Positions 6,038 through 39,337 of a DNA stretch of 42,910 nt are shown in pieces. The translations under genes were made by a program, and so were the position numbers. The stretch lies in the IMG/VR virus record IMGVR_UViG_3300002104_000077, positions 1-42,910 of that record. One strand, 5' to 3'. The DNA comes from a virus. Below the pieces are notes generated by a model that ran no database searches, was not told the DNA's origin, and was given only the letters and a program-made list of their open reading frames with translations. The stretch's first letter is position 1. The number at the start of each line of letters is the position of its first letter.

Positions 6038-6489
6038 TGGACTGCCGGCTTCGCAATGTTCAACACCACCGAATTTCCTTCAGCATCCAGAAACTTCCAT
6101 TTTTTAATGGGCCGGACTTCGAAGGTGAGCAGCCCGTCAGTGGTTTCCTGGATCATCGCCGGCCAGAATTCGCGATCACCGACATCCCCGACAGCAACCT
6201 CTGTCAGCGGGCTGGCAATCCCGCCGCCGGTGCTGGTGGTGGCAGGCGCCTTGTAGGTGCCGGTGCCCACCGTGGCCGGACGGTTGCCTTTGGCCTCGCG
6301 GCTGCGCAGAGATACCTGCTTGCGTGGGGATGTCTCCAGGGTGTTGAGGTCGGCCTTGAAGGTCGACGCCCGTGCGGCCTCGATGCCGGCGCGGATGGCT
6401 TGGCGATCCTTGATCATGCGATCGCCAATGGCGCGGCGAGAGTCCTGCATGCGGTAGCCGCTGTCGCGGCGGTCATCCTGTGCGCTCAC
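6034..6489 (-). CDS. Tail-associated protein (hypothetical)
   Basis: A 151-aa protein with a charged helical N-terminal half ('DRMIKDRQAIRAGIEAARAS') and a C-terminal beta-prone segment ending 'RPIKKWKFLDAEGNSVV'. It is located between the hub-like protein and the 531-aa tail-tip protein. The GTG at 6489 has GGAG eight bases upstream and is preferred; a TTG at 6495 would give a TTGA overlap. I assign no function beyond likely virion component or assembly factor. Confidence 0.55.
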   Translation of the reverse strand: MSAQDDRRDSGYRMQDSRRAIGDRMIKDRQAIRAGIEAARASTFKADLNTLETSPRKQVSLRSREAKGNRPATVGTGTYKAPATTSTGGGIASPLTEVAVGDVGDREFWPAMIQETTDGLLTFEVRPIKKWKFLDAEGNSVVLNIAKPAVQ

Positions 6490-6491
6490 GG

Positions 6492-8249
6492 TCAAAGCTC
6501 CAGCAGGTCGGTGGGGATGGCCACCCGGTAGGTGGCGGCCTGGGTGGCCTGGTATTCGTCTTGGTGGGCGGCCGGTATCTCTGGGGCTTCCAGCTTCAAC
6601 TCACGCGGGAACAGCACAAGCCCGGCGTTGATATCCAGGTCGTTCTGCGTGTAGTTGCCGCTGAAGCCCAGGCGCTCCGGGTCGTAAACCGGCGACAGGT
6701 TGCGCCCGCCCAACTGGCTCGGCAGGCTGATTGACAGCCCCGGCGTGCCGGCGGGCGTGCTGTTTGGCTTGGCCGGGATGGTCAGCGCGTCATCAACCGT
6801 ACCGCCGCCCTGGCTGACGGCCAGCAGCAGCGTGGTGATGGCCTCGCCTGAGTCAAAGTCCCACTCATCAATCAGGCTGGCCAGCTTGGCCTGGCAGGCA
6901 ATGTCGCGGCCGGCCACGTGGTCATTGACCTGCAACGTGTGCTCCAGCTGCACGCCGAGAGTGTCGGCGGTCGGCAACTGAAAGCTCAGGCGGTTGGCGC
7001 GGTGGGCGGCCAGCACCTGGGTCTTGGCGATGGCGGTGCCTACCGAAAAGACCCCGGCAAGGCGCGTGTCATCGCGCACGTCCACCACCCAATCGCCCAG
7101 CGCGTCCTGCACAGCATCAGTCTCTGGCGCCTTGAAGGTGGCGCTCTCAAACTCGGCCTCGCGATCGCTTTCGGTGTCCGCGCCAAAGCGATCCCGGCGG
7201 ATCACTTCGCCGGCCTGGGCGATGCTGGCCGGCGCCTCGATGCGGATGCGGTATTGCTCGGTCACCGGCTGGCCCCAGCGCCGTGCGGCCGTCCAGTTGC
7301 CGCCCAGCAGCAAGTCCGGAAAGCGGTTGGTCCAGCCAGCGGGCGGGTCGCAGTACACGCCGCTGGGCGGCAGCTTGTGCCACACCGCGCCATCGAGCAC
7401 CACCTGATACCCGGCGCCACTGCAGGCCGACTCGACCATTGCGATGTCGGGCAACTCGGTGTCATCGCGGCGCCACACGCAAAACCCGTTATCGATGCTG
7501 TTGCCGGCGATGTTCGGGTGCGACCAGGTGAATTGCTGGTGACGTTCGCGCAGGCGGATGAAGCGATAATCCAGCTCCAGCTCCACCACGTTGACGCGCT
7601 CGCTCAGCTCGACGGGTATCCAGTCCATCGACTGGTCCAGCACGCTGCCGGCCGGGTAGATAAACGCCGGGGCGGTGGCGACCCAGGGGGTCACCTGCAG
7701 CACGCCGTTGACGGACTTCTGCAGGCTGGCGGCCTGGGTGCTCATGCGCTCTTGGGCGTAGTCCCAGCGCGAGCGGCCATCGGGGGATTCAAACACGTCC
7801 GCCGACCACTGGCCGCCGGCCAGCGCGTCAACCTGGGCAACGGTCAGCGCCTCAATGGCATCCTGCAGGCGGTCGCTGCAATCGCAGCTCAGCAGGCGCT
7901 CCTGCATGCTGTACTGCGGGCGGATCACCTGGCCGGCGAAGCGCAGGTGCTCGACCCAGGCAGAGCCTGACCAGTGCTGGTAATAGACCTCAACCGACTT
8001 GCCGATGTACGCCGCCGGGTTGACGGCGCCCGCGTCGAGGCTCAGTACGAAGTCGGCCAGGGTGGCGGCGCCCTCTTCCCGCTCGATGCGCAGGGAGCCG
8101 GTCAGGTTGGCGCTAATATCCACGCCGCCCAGCAGCACCCGCGCGCCCCACAGCACCGAGATAATCGGCTCGACGGTGACGGCAGGCTGGCCCAGGGCCG
8201 CAGCGCCGTTGAGCGGTACCGCGTTGAGTTCGGCGCCATTGATTTGCAT
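6492..8249 (-). CDS. Large tail-tip / baseplate-hub-like protein
   Basis: A 585-aa protein encoded two genes after the tape measure, where siphophages place the distal-tail and hub proteins. An early segment ('GSLRIEREEGAATLADFVLSL') resembles the beta-rich start of hub/gp27-like domains, followed by 'FAGQVIRPQYSMQERLLSCDC', again typical of such proteins. The remainder has no obvious enzymatic motif. The ATG at 8249 overlaps the preceding TGA as ATGA; the open frame upstream is a shadow. The hub assignment is inferred from order and weak sequence resemblance. Confidence 0.6.
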   Translation of the reverse strand: MQINGAELNAVPLNGAAALGQPAVTVEPIISVLWGARVLLGGVDISANLTGSLRIEREEGAATLADFVLSLDAGAVNPAAYIGKSVEVYYQHWSGSAWVEHLRFAGQVIRPQYSMQERLLSCDCSDRLQDAIEALTVAQVDALAGGQWSADVFESPDGRSRWDYAQERMSTQAASLQKSVNGVLQVTPWVATAPAFIYPAGSVLDQSMDWIPVELSERVNVVELELDYRFIRLRERHQQFTWSHPNIAGNSIDNGFCVWRRDDTELPDIAMVESACSGAGYQVVLDGAVWHKLPPSGVYCDPPAGWTNRFPDLLLGGNWTAARRWGQPVTEQYRIRIEAPASIAQAGEVIRRDRFGADTESDREAEFESATFKAPETDAVQDALGDWVVDVRDDTRLAGVFSVGTAIAKTQVLAAHRANRLSFQLPTADTLGVQLEHTLQVNDHVAGRDIACQAKLASLIDEWDFDSGEAITTLLLAVSQGGGTVDDALTIPAKPNSTPAGTPGLSISLPSQLGGRNLSPVYDPERLGFSGNYTQNDLDINAGLVLFPRELKLEAPEIPAAHQDEYQATQAATYRVAIPTDLLEL

Positions 8250-31229: not shown

Positions 31230-31296
31230 CCGGCCCCTTTCACTGATGCACCTGGGTAGCCGGGTGCATTGGGAAATCAACCGGAGGAACAGCCCT

Positions 31297-32163
31297 ATGA
31301 AACAAGCCCTACTCGCAATTCCCCTGTGCCTGGCCATGTCCGGCGCATTCGCGGCACCCACTGACCTGGCCATCTGCACCGGCGGCCAAGGCGGCTTCTA
31401 CGAAGCCTTGGGTACCGACATCGGCCGCTCGGTGAACAAGGCCACCAACGTCAAGGTTGAAGTCCTGAACACCGGTGGCAGCGTCGAGAACGCCGCACTG
31501 ATGAAAGACGGCGACTGCGCCCTGGCCATCATCCAGGCCGACGCCGTTACCAGCCAGCCGCTGCCACCTGACTTGAAGGTCGTGGACGCCCACACCGAGG
31601 TGGTCTACTGGATCTTCGGCAAGTCCGGCGTCGACAACTTCAACGAGATGGAAAACGACTCGGTGGCCAAGAAGTACGCCTTTGCCACGGTCGCCGGCTC
31701 GGGCGCTGAGGTGACCCTGAAAAACTGGATCGACACCGACGACGACTACAAAGGAGCGGTGCCGGTTGAGTTTGACGACTGGTACCAGGCCGCTGAAGCC
31801 GTGTCGCAGGGCTTCGTGATGAAGGCCGGCGTCAAGGTCGAGATCGCCGGCATGCTGTACATCAGCCGCCCCGGCAAGATCAGCACCGACATCACCGAGG
31901 ACTTCGGCCCCAGCCTGACCATCGGCCAGGTCGAAGACAGTTCCTTTCAGAGCAGCAAGGACGCCAACGGCAACCCGCTGTACGTCCAATGCGAAATCGA
32001 CGGCAAACAAACGGGTGGCCTGGCCACCAGCACGATCAGTGACTCTGACACCTACTGCCTGAAAGCCCAGGTCGTTTACAACAACGACTGGCACCAGGGC
32101 GACCGCAAGATTCGCCGTGCGATCGACAAGAGCATCAACGGCGTAGTGAAGGCGGTTCGCTGA
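31297..32163 (+). CDS. Secreted TAXI-type (TRAP) solute-binding protein
   Basis: A 288-aa protein with a clear signal peptide (basic start, hydrophobic core, cleavage after about A-F-A at residue 19). The mature part begins with the TAXI-family pattern 'LAICTGGQGGFYEALGTDIGRSVNK', 'VEVLNTGGSVENAALMKDGDCALAIIQADA', and continues as a two-lobed periplasmic binding protein. TAXI proteins normally deliver small solutes to TRAP transporter membrane subunits, which are not encoded here. GGAGG precedes the ATG at 31297. In a phage early operon it may alter the host envelope, for example by ligand sequestration or superinfection exclusion; this is speculative. Confidence 0.8.
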   Translation: MKQALLAIPLCLAMSGAFAAPTDLAICTGGQGGFYEALGTDIGRSVNKATNVKVEVLNTGGSVENAALMKDGDCALAIIQADAVTSQPLPPDLKVVDAHTEVVYWIFGKSGVDNFNEMENDSVAKKYAFATVAGSGAEVTLKNWIDTDDDYKGAVPVEFDDWYQAAEAVSQGFVMKAGVKVEIAGMLYISRPGKISTDITEDFGPSLTIGQVEDSSFQSSKDANGNPLYVQCEIDGKQTGGLATSTISDSDTYCLKAQVVYNNDWHQGDRKIRRAIDKSINGVVKAVR

Positions 32164-32260: not shown

Positions 32261-32379
32261 CGAACAACCAGCGCCACGACTCGCCGCCGTTAGCGGCTAC
32301 CTGAGCACCAAGCGGCCGCTGTGTCCGCCCTCTCCCGCTGATTAGCTGACCCAGCCCTAAGCTGCTGGCGAGCGTCACG

Positions 32380-32814
32380 GGAGGAAACGCAGAAGCCGGG
32401 CAATAACGCCGTCAACGGCCCGTAGCCCCGCGGGTGGCATTAGGGGGGACCGATCACCTGGGCAACCAGGCTGCATCGGAGTGTGATCGGCGAGTCGCAG
32501 TGATAGCAGGGTGGCCACCTTGCCCCGAGCCGATAGGCAGCGCGAGCTGACTGGTGAAGACGGGCAACACCCGGCTCGATTCGATCACACCCCGATGCAG
32601 GCATTCCGCCGCATCAAAACCCCTGGGAAGGACGCGAGTCCATCACTGGGGTCAGATCGGGCACGATCAGCGGCCAACCCACGGCGCAAGACGCTCCAGT
32701 GGTTGGCAGAGGAAGCGTAAGCCTCTACCCGTGCGACGGGTAAGCGCTGCAAATAGTCGCGTCATCCAACACAGCGCCCCATTCAACACAGGCCCGGCAA
32801 CTGCTGGGCCTTTT
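32380..32814 (+). ncRNA. Candidate large structured non-coding RNA with terminator
   Basis: The gap between the 31-aa peptide and the gene at 32846 is packed with stable hairpins: CCTGG-GCAA-CCAGG (32457-32470) inside CCGATCA/TGATCGG (32450-32456/32484-32490); GCAGGGT/ACCTTGC (32506-32523); CAGC-GCGA-GCTG (32538-32549) and CGGG-CAACA-CCCG (32561-32573), both spanned by CGAGCCG/CGGCTCG (32526-32532/32572-32578, which would compete with the second hairpin's last two bases); GGAC-GCGA-GTCC (32630-32641) inside ACCCC/GGGGT; a 9-bp bulged stem (32673-32682/32699-32707); AGAGG/CCTCT; ACCCG-TGCGA-CGGGT. Several loops are GNRA tetraloops. A long-range 19-nt inverted repeat with one mismatch (32471-32489/32582-32600) competes with the first stem. 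An intrinsic terminator (stem 32791-32810, T4) closes it. No frame looks protein-coding. The family is not recognised. Confidence 0.6.
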
Positions 32815-36237: not shown

Positions 36238-36849
36238 ATGAAGCCTGAAATGATCACCCTGAAAGCCGGCCAGGCCACTATCAAGATGCCGGCCACCGCG
36301 CTGGCGCAGCTTGCGCTGGCCAGCGTTTTCGGCCAGTTGGTGCCGCAGCAATCGGCACCAGCACTTCCTGCCGGCGCTGTTCCTGCGCTTGGCGCTTACT
36401 GGCCTGGCCAGGGCGGCGTGAATGCCGGCCTTATGCGCGGCCTCGACGGGGCACGCGATTACTACCTGATCGTGCCGACCGGTGATGACGCCGAGTTCGA
36501 AGAGCTGAAGTACGGCCCGCGCGACTTCGAAGTGCCTGGCGCCGACAGCGCCTGGGATGGCCTGGCCAACACCAAGGCCCTGCTCGCCTCTGGCAAGTCG
36601 CACCCAGCGGCCGAGGCCTGCAATGGCTTCACCCGTGACGGCCACAGCGACTTCTACCTGCCGGCCCGTCGTGAGCTGCAGACGGCCGAGGCGGTGTGCC
36701 CTGAGGTGTTCAGCAAGGGCTGGCACTGGAGCAGCACGCAGCGCTCCGCCGACACCGCATTCGGCGTGCACTTCGGTGATGGCGGTCAGAACAACCTCGT
36801 CAAGCACTACGAGCTCCGTGTCCGTCCCGTCCGCAGATTGTTCATTTAA
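36238..36849 (+). CDS. DGR target protein 1 (C-type-lectin/DUF1566-like fold)
   Basis: A 203-aa protein. An N-terminal helical part (about 10-45) is followed by a DUF1566/formylglycine-enzyme-like C-type-lectin domain: 'DYYLIVPTGDDAEFEELKYGPRD', 'GHSDFYLPARRELQTAEA', 'KGWHWSSTQRSADTAF', ending 'YELRVRPVRRLFI'. The last part (residues about 167-199) is variable repeat 1. Eleven codons there differ from the template repeat, all by changes at template adenines. There is no signal peptide. It is 92 bases from target 2, separated by a hairpin and a terminator. The ligand and location of the protein are unknown. Confidence 0.9.
   Translation: MKPEMITLKAGQATIKMPATALAQLALASVFGQLVPQQSAPALPAGAVPALGAYWPGQGGVNAGLMRGLDGARDYYLIVPTGDDAEFEELKYGPRDFEVPGADSAWDGLANTKALLASGKSHPAAEACNGFTRDGHSDFYLPARRELQTAEAVCPEVFSKGWHWSSTQRSADTAFGVHFGDGGQNNLVKHYELRVRPVRRLFI
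36737..36836 (+). repeat. DGR variable repeat VR1
   Basis: A 100-nt repeat matching the template at 38138-38237 with 14 differences, every one at a template A (A to G, C or T). The last 26 bases (from GAGCTCCGTG to CCGCAG) are identical in all three copies and form the likely initiation of mutagenic homing (IMH) segment. Confidence 0.95.
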
Positions 36850-36867
36850 TCATTCGTTAATTCATTC

Positions 36868-36883
36868 CTGGCCGACAGGCCAG
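36868..36883 (+). other. DGR target-recognition hairpin after VR1
   Basis: A perfect 6-bp stem CTGGCC/GGCCAG with a GACA tetraloop, 31 bases after the end of VR1. Hairpins or cruciforms with GRNA-type tetraloops downstream of the VR are known target-recognition elements in the Bordetella phage DGR; this one fits that description. Confidence 0.7.
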
Positions 36884-36895
36884 CAGTAACTCAGG

Positions 36896-36915
36896 GGCGC
36901 ATCAGCGCCTTTTTT
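36896..36915 (+). terminator. Intrinsic terminator between the DGR target genes
   Basis: Stem GGCGC/GCGCC with ATCA loop and T6 on the plus strand. It suggests that target 1 is expressed more than the genes downstream, or that target 2 has separate expression. Confidence 0.8.
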
Positions 36916-36940
36916 GTTGCCTTCAGAAAGAGGAAGCACC

Positions 36941-37558
36941 ATGCAATCAGTAGCCCTGGCAGCACCAGCATTCACCCTCCCTGAAATCGGCCAAGCCTAC
37001 GGCGGCGGCTTCTTCTCCGGGATCACCGTTCAGGACGGCAAGCGCTACATGCTCATCACCGCAGGCCGCGAGCATGAGCTTGAAGGCGAATGGGGCGAGT
37101 ACGGCACGAAGATCGAAGGCGCCGACAGCTTCACCGATGGCCGCGCCAACACCGAGGCCATGGCCGCCGCTGGCAGCGAGCTGGCCCAGCAGGTTCTGGC
37201 GCTGAGCATCGGCGGCCACAGCGACTGGGCGATCCCGGCGCGCGACCAGCAGGAGCTGCAGTACCGCAACCTCAAGCCCACCGCGCGGGAGAACTACTGC
37301 TGCGGCCGTGACGGTGACAACCCGAACAGCCTGCCGATCGGCCTGCTCTACACGCCTGAGTCACCAACCAAGACCACGGTCGGTGCCTTCCGCGAGGGCG
37401 GCAGCGAGGCCTTCCAGCCAGCCTGGTACTGGTCGAGTTCGCGGCGCTCCGCCTACGACGCATTCTTCATGTACTTCGTTGATGGCTGTCAGGACAACCT
37501 CGGCAAGGACATCGAGCTCCGTGTCCGTCCCGTCCGCAGCGAGTTGATCATTGATTAA
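36941..37558 (+). CDS. DGR target protein 2 (C-type-lectin/DUF1566-like fold)
   Basis: A 205-aa protein related in layout to target 1: 'KRYMLITAGREHELEGEWGEYG', 'GHSDWAIPARDQQELQYRNL', 'PAWYWSSSRRSAYDAFFMYF', ending 'IELRVRPVRSELIID'. VR2 covers residues about 167-199, the same residue numbers as in target 1, with twelve altered codons. The region between (about 115-155) is longer and carries Cys-Cys and Pro-rich loops not found in target 1. There is no signal peptide. The ATG at 36941 has an AAGAGGAA site. Confidence 0.9.
   Translation: MQSVALAAPAFTLPEIGQAYGGGFFSGITVQDGKRYMLITAGREHELEGEWGEYGTKIEGADSFTDGRANTEAMAAAGSELAQQVLALSIGGHSDWAIPARDQQELQYRNLKPTARENYCCGRDGDNPNSLPIGLLYTPESPTKTTVGAFREGGSEAFQPAWYWSSSRRSAYDAFFMYFVDGCQDNLGKDIELRVRPVRSELIID
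37440..37539 (+). repeat. DGR variable repeat VR2
   Basis: A 100-nt repeat aligned without gaps to the template at 38138-38237. It has 15 differences, all at template adenines. The 3' 26 bases are identical to VR1 and the template. Confidence 0.95.
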
Positions 37559-37570
37559 TTTGTTCATTCA

Positions 37571-37597
37571 GCCGGCCGCTTGCGGCCGGTGCTTTTG
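37571..37597 (+). terminator. Strong hairpin after VR2 (target-recognition hairpin and/or terminator)
   Basis: An 8-bp perfect stem CCGGCCGC/GCGGCCGG, extended by a G-T pair, with a minimal loop, followed by TTTT. It starts 31 bases after VR2, the same distance as the hairpin after VR1, so it is probably the cognate DGR hairpin. The T-run also allows terminator function. Confidence 0.7.
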
Positions 37598-37611
37598 GGG
37601 AACCTTGCCGA

Positions 37612-37965
37612 ATGGCTATGCACACGGATCTGCCGATACACAAAGCCGCCTTTGACCTGCTGAGCATGGCCACTGACATAACGCGGAACATCCCGCGCGA
37701 CTTTAAGGCTGGGCTCGGCGCCAAGGTCAGGGACGAGTGCATCGAGGTGATGGTGCTGATCGCCCGAGCAAACGCAGCAAAGGACAAGCGCCAGCACCTG
37801 GGCGAGCTGGTTGAGCGTATCCAGGTGGTTGAGTTCCTGCTGCGGCTGTTCAAAGAGAAGCGCTTCATCAGCATTCCGCAGCACGCCGCGGCGATCCTCG
37901 TCACGGCATCCATCGGCAAGCAGGCCAACGCCTGGAAGAAGTCCGCAACCGCGCCCGCCACCTGA
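37612..37965 (+). CDS. avd: DGR accessory protein Avd (four-helix bundle)
   Basis: A 117-aa, strongly helical basic protein ('HKAAFDLLSMATDITRNIPRDFKAGLGAKVRDECIEVMVLIARANAAKDK', 'LVERIQVVEFLLRLFKEKRFIS', 'ASIGKQANAWKKSA'). Length, composition and place between target gene and template repeat match Avd, which forms a positively charged pentamer that binds the reverse transcriptase and the template RNA and is needed for mutagenic cDNA synthesis. GGGGAA lies nine bases before the ATG. Confidence 0.88.
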   Translation: MAMHTDLPIHKAAFDLLSMATDITRNIPRDFKAGLGAKVRDECIEVMVLIARANAAKDKRQHLGELVERIQVVEFLLRLFKEKRFISIPQHAAAILVTASIGKQANAWKKSATAPAT

Positions 37966-38137
37966 AGGTCACGGCCTTCACGTCTGTGCGATTTGAATCT
38001 GGTCGTGCCGCTGGCCCCTGGGTCACCGCCATGCGCATCAGAGATACCGCCGGTCTAAAGCGTCCGCGTAGGTCTCGCGCAGTTTCCTTGCTGATCGGCA
38101 CTGCCTTCGGCTTGGCGACGTAGATAGCACGATAGGT

Positions 38138-38237
38138 CGCAGCGCTCCGCCAACAACGCATTCAACATGAACTTCGATGATGGCAATCAGAACAACAACG
38201 ACAAGAACAACGAGCTCCGTGTCCGTCCCGTCCGCAG
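38138..38237 (+). repeat. DGR template repeat (TR)
   Basis: A 100-nt template between Avd and the reverse transcriptase. It holds 31 A, arranged largely as AAC/AAT codons in the frame of the VRs, so adenine mutagenesis can give many residues but not stop codons at these positions. It is the parent of VR1 and VR2 (14 and 15 changes, only at A). It lacks the downstream hairpin found after each VR, as expected for a template. The template RNA probably also includes the spacer from 37966. Confidence 0.95.
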
Positions 38238-39337
38238 ATTCGACTGTTGCACCTTACCCGTTCTGCGATTTGGTCCAGGCCTACTACGATTGCCGGCGCT
38301 CCAAGCGCAACAGCGCCAGCGCGCTGGCCTTCGAGGCGGACCTAGAGCGGAACCTTGTTCAGCTACACGACGACCTGCTCGCCGGCACCTACCGGCCTGG
38401 CCGCTCGATCTGCTTTGTGGTTACCCGACCCAAGGCGCGGGAGGTGTGGGCGGCGGCCTTTCGGGATCGCGTTGTCCACCACCTGCTATACAACCATGTG
38501 GCCCCGCGCTTCTACGCCAGCTTCATAGCGGACAGCTGCGCGTGCATCCCGGGGCGCGGCACGCTGTACGCCGCCGAGCGACTTGAGGCCAAGATACGCA
38601 GCGCCAGCCAGAACTGGGCGCAGCCTCTGTTCTATCTCAAGCTGGACCTGGCCAACTTCTTCGTGGCAATCGATAAGCAGGTGCTGCGCCAGCAGCTGGC
38701 CAAGCGCATCACCGAGCCTTGGTGGCTGGCCCTGGCCACGCATATCCTGATGCACGACCCACGCAGCGACTATGAAATCCGCAGCCCGCGCCACCTGTTC
38801 AACCTGGTGCCGCAGCACAAGCGCCTCACCGCGCAGCCTGCGCACCTGGGGCTGCCCATTGGCAACCTGTCGTCGCAGTTCTTCGCCAACGTCTATCTGG
38901 ACGGCCTGGACCAGTTCGTAAAGCACCGTCTGCGCTGCAAGCACTACGTGCGCTACGTCGACGACTTCGTGCTGCTGCATGAGTCGCCCCAGCAGCTGAA
39001 CGCCTGGCGTGAACAGATCGAGCAGCACCTGGCCACGCTGGGTGCCCGGCTCAACCCGAGCAAGACCATCCTGCAGCCAGTGGCCCGCGGCGTCGACTTC
39101 GTGGGCCACGTCATCAAGCCCTGGCGGCGTACCACCCGGAAGCGATCAGTTGCCCAGGCGCTGACCCGCACCGCTACAGCGCCAGCAGCTGACCTGCGTG
39201 AAACCGCCAACAGCTACTTCGGCCTGCTCAGCCAGGCCAGTCACAGCGAGAAAGACCGCGCCAAGCTGGCGCGCCTGATCCTCAAGCGGGGCCACAGCGT
39301 CAACGCGGGCCTGACCAAGACCTATCCAAACCGATAA
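38177..39337 (+). CDS. DGR reverse transcriptase
   Basis: A reverse transcriptase of the DGR clade, up to 386 aa. Motifs (numbered from 38177): N-terminal 'YRPGRSICFVVTRPKAREVWAAAFRDRVVHHLL', 'SCACIPGRGT', catalytic Asp158 in 'LKLDLANFF', the DGR-typical 'GLPIGNLSSQ' (225-234), the active site Y260-V-D-D, and 'LNPSKT' plus 'FVGHVIKP'. With Avd it copies the template RNA with adenine-directed errors. No ATG lies between the template and the first conserved helix: the only ATGs (38177, 38180) are inside the template, with a GTG at 38219 (also in the template) and a TTG at 38270. The true start is therefore uncertain. Confidence 0.93.
   Translation: MMAIRTTTTRTTSSVSVPSADSTVAPYPFCDLVQAYYDCRRSKRNSASALAFEADLERNLVQLHDDLLAGTYRPGRSICFVVTRPKAREVWAAAFRDRVVHHLLYNHVAPRFYASFIADSCACIPGRGTLYAAERLEAKIRSASQNWAQPLFYLKLDLANFFVAIDKQVLRQQLAKRITEPWWLALATHILMHDPRSDYEIRSPRHLFNLVPQHKRLTAQPAHLGLPIGNLSSQFFANVYLDGLDQFVKHRLRCKHYVRYVDDFVLLHESPQQLNAWREQIEQHLATLGARLNPSKTILQPVARGVDFVGHVIKPWRRTTRKRSVAQALTRTATAPAADLRETANSYFGLLSQASHSEKDRAKLARLILKRGHSVNAGLTKTYPNR

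Follow-up and report, generated by a model that had tools for sequence, protein, structure and literature searches.

GOLLD and ROOL form RNA cages. The put RNAs of phage HK022 are short, consist of two hairpins and represent phage RNA in transcription-control regions. GOLLD (RF02032) is a large ornate phage RNA with a conserved 3' part and a variable 5' part, and ROOL (RF03087) is likewise large and ornate and is present in phages and prophages (PMC12286853). Both of them occur near tRNA islands, and the linker of GOLLD may hold tRNAs (PMC12286853). A further entry, Proteo-phage-1 (RF03044, 82 nt), is, like the group described here, an RNA of Proteobacteria phages and prophages. In this study, we analyzed a viral record of 42,910 bases over its whole length (hereafter the window), in which the plus strand from about 32350 to 32814 encodes a genuine phage RNA that is folded, non-coding and about 430-465 nt long. 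It belongs to a modular group, with modules designated A, K and T, that is almost absent from RNA databases and appears to be unannotated save for the Proteo-phage-1 fragment. Searches of the open literature for Proteo-phage-1 and for RNAs of this type gave no description of the group.

The original prediction had regarded 32380-32814 as a large multi-stem RNA of no assigned class and without a plausible gene, and had proposed an Rfam search and a covariance analysis of homologues; both were carried out and both agree with it. None of the 4227 Rfam families, including ribozymes, introns and riboswitches, was assigned to the region at gathering scores, and up to E = 10 only chance-level matches were obtained, the top one being SorY at 19 bits, where the cut-off is 111. 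In homologues, on the other hand, covariation is strong, with compensatory changes beyond those of shuffled controls. No tRNA was detected in the region by a tRNA search, and no sigma-70-type promoter was found by a promoter scan. The only Rfam match that passed in the whole window was RT-15 (37949-38139). It is part of a full diversity-generating retroelement (36238-39337), which comprises two Lcl_C-type targets, bAvd, the RT-15 RNA and a reverse transcriptase.

The plus strand of 32380-32814 folds at -195.5 kcal/mol compared with a mean of -169.5 kcal/mol for 100 dinucleotide shuffles (z = -3.91), none of which folded as well. The z-score is only modest when folding is done in 160-nt windows, and the reverse strand is also stable (z = -3.1). 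As the DNA is GC-rich and its reverse strand folds well, folding energy alone proves little. A further comparison is that with L003, which has the same neighboring gene as the window and an RNA approximately 72% identical, with large indels. Over 224 nt aligned without gaps there are 18 differences, which would change the amino acid in 10-12 codons and be silent in 3-4 codons in all three plus frames; the protein-coding reading was rejected on this pattern. Several of the differences are compensatory, namely A-T to G-C at 32677/32703 and G-C to A-T at both 32684/32696 and 32686/32694, and no standard pair of the helices listed below is disrupted between the two sequences. Taken together, the codon changes and the compensatory pairs show that the region is a conserved structured RNA and not a protein gene. 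It is very improbable that the fold of this GC-rich intergenic DNA arose by chance or that a protein gene has gone unrecognized here, as the stability of the reverse strand and a 367-codon open frame spanning the 3' half might suggest, since both readings are contradicted by the compensatory changes and by the non-coding substitutions in all frames. The features of the RNA are as follows.

32350 to 32368, + strand: candidate 5' hairpin CCCAGC...GCTGG, inferred from comparison by eye and the weakest-supported part of the map
32449 to 32457, + strand: module A leader ACCGATCAC, from a pattern scan and its contexts
32457 to 32470, + strand: module A hairpin CCTGG-GCAA-CCAGG, from the predicted fold and comparison of homologues
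32471 to 32489, + strand: long arm, 5' strand CTGCATCGGAGTGTGATCG, from the inverted repeat and covariation
32490 to 32581, + strand: variable interior of the arm, where tRNA-like sequence is often found in relatives
32582 to 32600, + strand: long arm, 3' strand CGATCACACCCCGATGCAG, from the inverted repeat and covariation
32594 to 32615, + strand: alternative hairpin GATGCAGGCATTCCGCCGCATC (-10.4 kcal/mol), which would remove the arm base
32620 to 32651, + strand: helix CCCC/GGGG enclosing the hairpin GGAC-GCGA-GTCC (32630-32641), from the predicted fold
32655 to 32673, + strand: GATCGGGCACGATCAGCGG, whose GATCGG is predicted to pair with CCGATC of module A
32674 to 32706, + strand: hairpin CCAACC...GGTTGG, with the compensatory A-T to G-C and G-C to A-T changes in L003
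32708 to 32726, + strand: hairpin AGAGG...CCTCT, from the predicted fold and the comparison with L003
32727 to 32777, + strand: module T, a hairpin ACCCGT-GCG-ACGGGT followed by the stem GCGCTG/CAGCGC closing AATAGTCGCGTCATCCAA, from model R1 and covariation
32790 to 32814, + strand: terminator-like hairpin AGGCCCGGCA-AC-TGCTGGGCCT followed by TTTTC, a strong stem that received no terminator call

The left end of the RNA is probably nearer to 32350 than to 32380, and similar CCCAGC hairpins open the RNA in L010 and in relatives bearing Proteo-phage-1. In L003 the helix at 32620-32651 shows one wobble change with all pairs intact, and its CTGGGAAGGAC is common to the window and L010. The GATCGGGCACGATCAGCGG segment is identical in L003, where its GATCGG/CCGATC pairing is less certain.

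Several details of the original prediction could be followed at this level. The 19-nt inverted repeat 32471-32489/32582-32600, with one mismatch, is present as described. The local stem CCGATCAC/GTGATCGG (32450-32457/32483-32490), which was thought to compete with it, is also present in the window; however, it is missing in L003, L010 and L053, in which the arm has a different sequence at this place. The idea of two alternative pairings therefore holds in spirit but not as drawn, and the competition that recurs is between the long arm, with its 5' and 3' strands paired, and a downstream strand that is likewise complementary to the 3' strand of the arm. With regard to the four GNRA loops, three are present in the predicted fold (the third one in the hairpin CAGC-GCGA-GCTG), whereas the GTAA near 32716 sits within a 9-nt loop. 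In homologues the loops read TTTCGA, TTAC, GAAA and ACAC; such unconserved loops lend no support to a ribozyme or to GNRA tertiary contacts, and the reading of them as a sign of a ribozyme or ornate RNA was not kept. As for a terminator of its own, the stem at 32790-32811 is strong, but no more than four T come after it and a standard scan did not call it, so that a weak terminator belonging to the RNA is possible.

Module A consists of ACCGATCAC, a hairpin, CTGCATCGG and a long arm returning to CCGATGCAG. The conservation of the ACCGATCAC leader is partly built in, because the scan required that sequence. About a dozen other phage contigs share the module, which also occurs in Pseudomonas phage Jeremy; the pattern itself gave 16 matches, about half of which are chance matches in coding DNA. 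The window carries the hairpin and then the CTGCATCGG arm with covarying distal pairs. In homologues the hairpin stem covaries (CCTGT/ACAGG, CCTC/GAGG), and its loop is of the GNRA type only in some. Within the arm, the proximal nine pairs are near-constant and distal pairs 10-16 differ widely in sequence. These distal pairs were formed in 99 of 112 cells over 16 loci chosen in a way that favors pairing, compared with 54 on average and at most 69 in 500 partner shuffles. When the arm was anchored on the proximal 9 nt alone, 104 of 133 cells were paired against 65 (maximum 85) after shuffling, in a set whose contrast is reduced by a few reverse-complement and spurious entries. Shuffled controls are quoted throughout because both helix choice and locus selection favor pairing. 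The interior of the window arm contains no tRNA and no clear tRNA-like part.

Close relatives of the window version, full-length or partial, were limited to L003, L006 and L010 in the collections searched. L010 and the fragment L006 were located via a conserved 3' motif, and L010 carries both the RT-15 RNA of the window and the structured RNA. A search via neighboring proteins yielded only L003 and L006 plus contigs without the RNA, and the plasmid collection gave no match to it. A match in Erwinia Era103 was rejected, as only the terminator is shared. Upstream in L003 (approximately 6420-6542), the closest homologue, there is an extra inverted-repeat arm of similar style, GCATCGGGGTGTGATCTGG ... 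CCAGATCACACCCCGATGC, which has the look of an arm duplication.

Module T, at the 3' side, comprises the CCGTGCGACGG hairpin and then a stem closing AATAnTCGCGTCATCCAA, and its loop TCGCGTCATCCAA is almost invariant. It was identified in about 22 viral contigs and in Marinobacterium genomes, and is near-identical in Pseudomonas phages ZC03 and ZC08; several of about twenty further viral contigs with the module resemble P. aeruginosa phages. Among the pattern matches in genome contigs, only those of two Marinobacterium genomes (L037 and L040) look real and most others are due to chance. The module is rare in the genomes of Pseudomonadaceae species (2 of 398, with 15 candidates scored per genome). 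In P. aeruginosa contigs of the L018 type it follows a terminator, with no visible module A. Over 12 distinct sequences, in an alignment that was fitted to the model and hence somewhat favors structure, 93.5% of cells in the two helices were paired versus 82% after shuffling, and 11 double changes were observed versus 3.6 expected from shuffles. None of 500 shuffles matched the covariation score, and register slides abolished the signal. The window contains both helices and the loop AATAnTCGCGTCATCCAA, with 80.2 bits in model R1, although it is one of the six sequences from which R1 was built; R1 also matches L024, L029 and L055, which were absent from its building set, and this supports the model. 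UGCGA in loop 1 complements UCGCG in loop 2; as both loops are invariant, this possible loop-loop pairing is complementarity and not covariation. Compensatory changes maintain both module A and module T.

Module K follows module A directly in Jeremy, PS-1 (variant A), L061-L063, L068 and L069. Its form is GAATGCGC-AGGCTGAT-GCGC or something close to it, then approximately 10-170 nt of insert, then GCCGG-AGATCAGC-ACCGGC, all inside a closing stem. The GAATGCGCAGGCTGATGCGC ... CCGGAGATCAGCACCGG arrangement within a closing stem, which defines K, is not found in the window, although its homologue L003 has a K-like CCGGAGATCAGCACCGGCCA within the arm. An exact 21-base search of the viral collection revealed K in at least 120 viral stretches, and a 41-base enteric variant was present in 621 of 5,426 complete E. 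coli genomes (about 11%); such counts for K, like those for T, are lower bounds because exact patterns were used. No annotated feature lies under the E. coli matches, among the matches listed. In the K-bearing loci searched, no Rfam family passes except tRNA, and Proteo-phage-1 adjoining K in PS-1.

In the relatives, K has a covarying closing stem and two hairpin loops able to pair with each other. A run of at least five pairs was found in the closing stem of 94% of 110 loci compared with 39% after partner shuffling. GCUGAU in one loop is the exact complement of AUCAGC in the other; since the retrieval pattern fixed the loop, this pairing is a matter of complementarity only. The strand 5' of K also complements a strand 40-330 nt upstream, thereby making the arm; in a test whose helix choice favors pairing, 35 of 121 loci reached a helix score of 14 or more, and none of the shuffled DNA did. 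Complementarity in both directions gives the 3' strand of the arm two partners, and in relatives it can pair either upstream or downstream, the arm sometimes carrying a tRNA-like insert. In the window, the arm strand 32592-32600 can alternatively pair with 32611-32615 (-10.4 kcal/mol), and the L010 counterpart of this hairpin is GATGCAG-AATGGT-CTGCATC (-10.6 kcal/mol). Judging from sequence and predicted folds, the window carries a reduced form of the same two-partner design, and this competition is a recurring one in the group.

Many phages and prophages, from Pseudomonas as well as from E. coli and Klebsiella, carry these modules, in several genomic settings. In E. coli prophages, K copies are flanked by an antitermination gene and a holin gene and come just past a terminator hairpin, and in PAJU2 the element is downstream of Q. 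One E. coli prophage (L194, 2460-2680) offers an example of an unannotated K RNA between the antitermination and holin genes. In ZC03, Klebsiella phage KlebP_265 and Escherichia phage swi2, the element is within or beside tRNA genes. KlebP_265 has two tandem K modules upstream of three tRNA genes (L046, approximately 1300-1800). Between tRNA genes of ZC03 (L002, 2010-2330) we noticed another unannotated and apparently structured stretch, whose sequence is unlike A, K and T. The window copy is situated in an accessory block, away from Q and holin, and the next gene begins approximately 30 nt past the terminator-like hairpin. The gene adjoining the RNA (31294-32160) encodes an NMT1-like (periplasmic solute-binding) domain, an unusual phage cargo that falls in a PHROG of unknown function.

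Our preferred reading, which we put forward tentatively, is that the RNA encoded here, which is large, folded and non-coding, comes from an uncatalogued modular group of phage RNAs whose members would serve as a structural scaffold acting in trans. By analogy with GOLLD and ROOL, a conserved core would display exchangeable arms, and the base of the arm might re-pair during folding or assembly. Such an RNA would probably be made in lytic growth and might conceivably meet the translation or tRNA machinery of the host. Besides the covariation, the positions near late genes and tRNA genes and the T-loop enrichment given below count in favor of this reading. Against it stand the missing sigma-70 promoter, the weak terminator, the lack of a clear K module and of a recognizable tRNA-like insert in the window copy, the small number of close relatives and the location in an accessory block. 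A bolder formulation, possible though held with less confidence, would place these RNAs in a large, unrecognized gammaproteobacterial phage superfamily having a conserved three-strand re-pairing core, loop-loop locks and grafted, exchangeable arms, some of them tRNA-like, and forming an RNA-only particle or decoy platform late in infection.

The main alternative, which we consider unlikely, is a cis-acting leader (an attenuator, an antiterminator or a late-leader control) in which pairing at the arm base decides on transcription or translation into the downstream genes. In favor of such a leader, K sits between antitermination and lysis genes in E. coli prophages and in PAJU2, immediately behind one terminator and frequently ahead of a second; a conserved strand complements an upstream as well as a downstream partner, and the distance to the next gene in the window is short. 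However, the downstream genes vary among phages, several copies are in tandem or within tRNA clusters, and the competing strands lie outside any terminator or ribosome-binding site. In addition, the RNA is longer and more ornate than usual leaders.

Rather improbable is a precursor or sponge, with the core as a carrier only and the arms as decoys for host RNAs, tRNA-binding proteins or tRNA-cutting defense enzymes. Arms and K inserts are indeed extremely variable and are exchanged among phages, and T-loop or T-arm-like motifs are enriched in the elements (17 of 108, versus 9 of 372 flanking stretches), where they cluster toward the 3' side of the arm. A tRNA finder calls an incomplete tRNA within the ZC03 element. 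Nevertheless, a recognizable tRNA-like part is absent from most arms, that of the window included. We regard as slightly more doubtful still an element working at the DNA level, for instance a site of recombination or insertion with inverted and direct repeats acting as DNA, for which RNA structure would be incidental. K is flanked by near-direct repeats, namely the 5' strand of the arm and the 3' closing strand, and the modules are shuffled between phages, both of which would fit such an element. On the other hand, the G-U pairs, the bulges and the GC-rich hairpins of module T are better explained by RNA, the annotated cases have a single orientation relative to transcription, and no accompanying recombinase gene was seen.

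With this group, a common and previously uncatalogued kind of phage RNA becomes accessible to study. The group is found in easily handled hosts, such as E. coli, and in the cultured Pseudomonas phages ZC03, PAJU2, PS-1 and Jeremy, which makes the role of ornate phage RNAs directly testable.

Regarding known RNAs, Proteo-phage-1 immediately precedes A and K in PS-1 and L204, and in the Marinobacterium genome L040 it is located 5' of T, with model scores of 63.7 bits in PS-1 and 52.6 bits in L040. Judging by this placement, it appears to be another module of the same RNAs, whereas its Rfam model includes none of A, K and T. It was present in 19 of 198 Pseudomonadaceae genomes (16 above the cut-off), often without A, K or T, and had no match in the window up to E = 10. 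The HK022 put RNAs and phage antitermination leaders are likewise structured and located in transcription-control regions; the comparison with them was made through the Rfam library only.

Membership in GOLLD was rejected, as none of 12 records (the window and 11 relatives) matched its model at E <= 10, in a search whose controls responded, below the cut-off, in five genomes. The ROOL model matched none of the same 12 records, with the control genomes equally silent, which makes this a weak negative, and the whole-library scan was also without ROOL. Many GOLLD members are twice the size of the window RNA, and no common sequence was seen. What the group has in common with GOLLD and ROOL is a set of outward traits: they are ornate phage RNAs near tRNAs, with tRNA or tRNA-like inserts in a variable part, a conserved 3' part and late-gene positions. 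Trans action and scaffolding are suggested for the present group by this analogy, and the resemblance is a likeness of kind, not membership.
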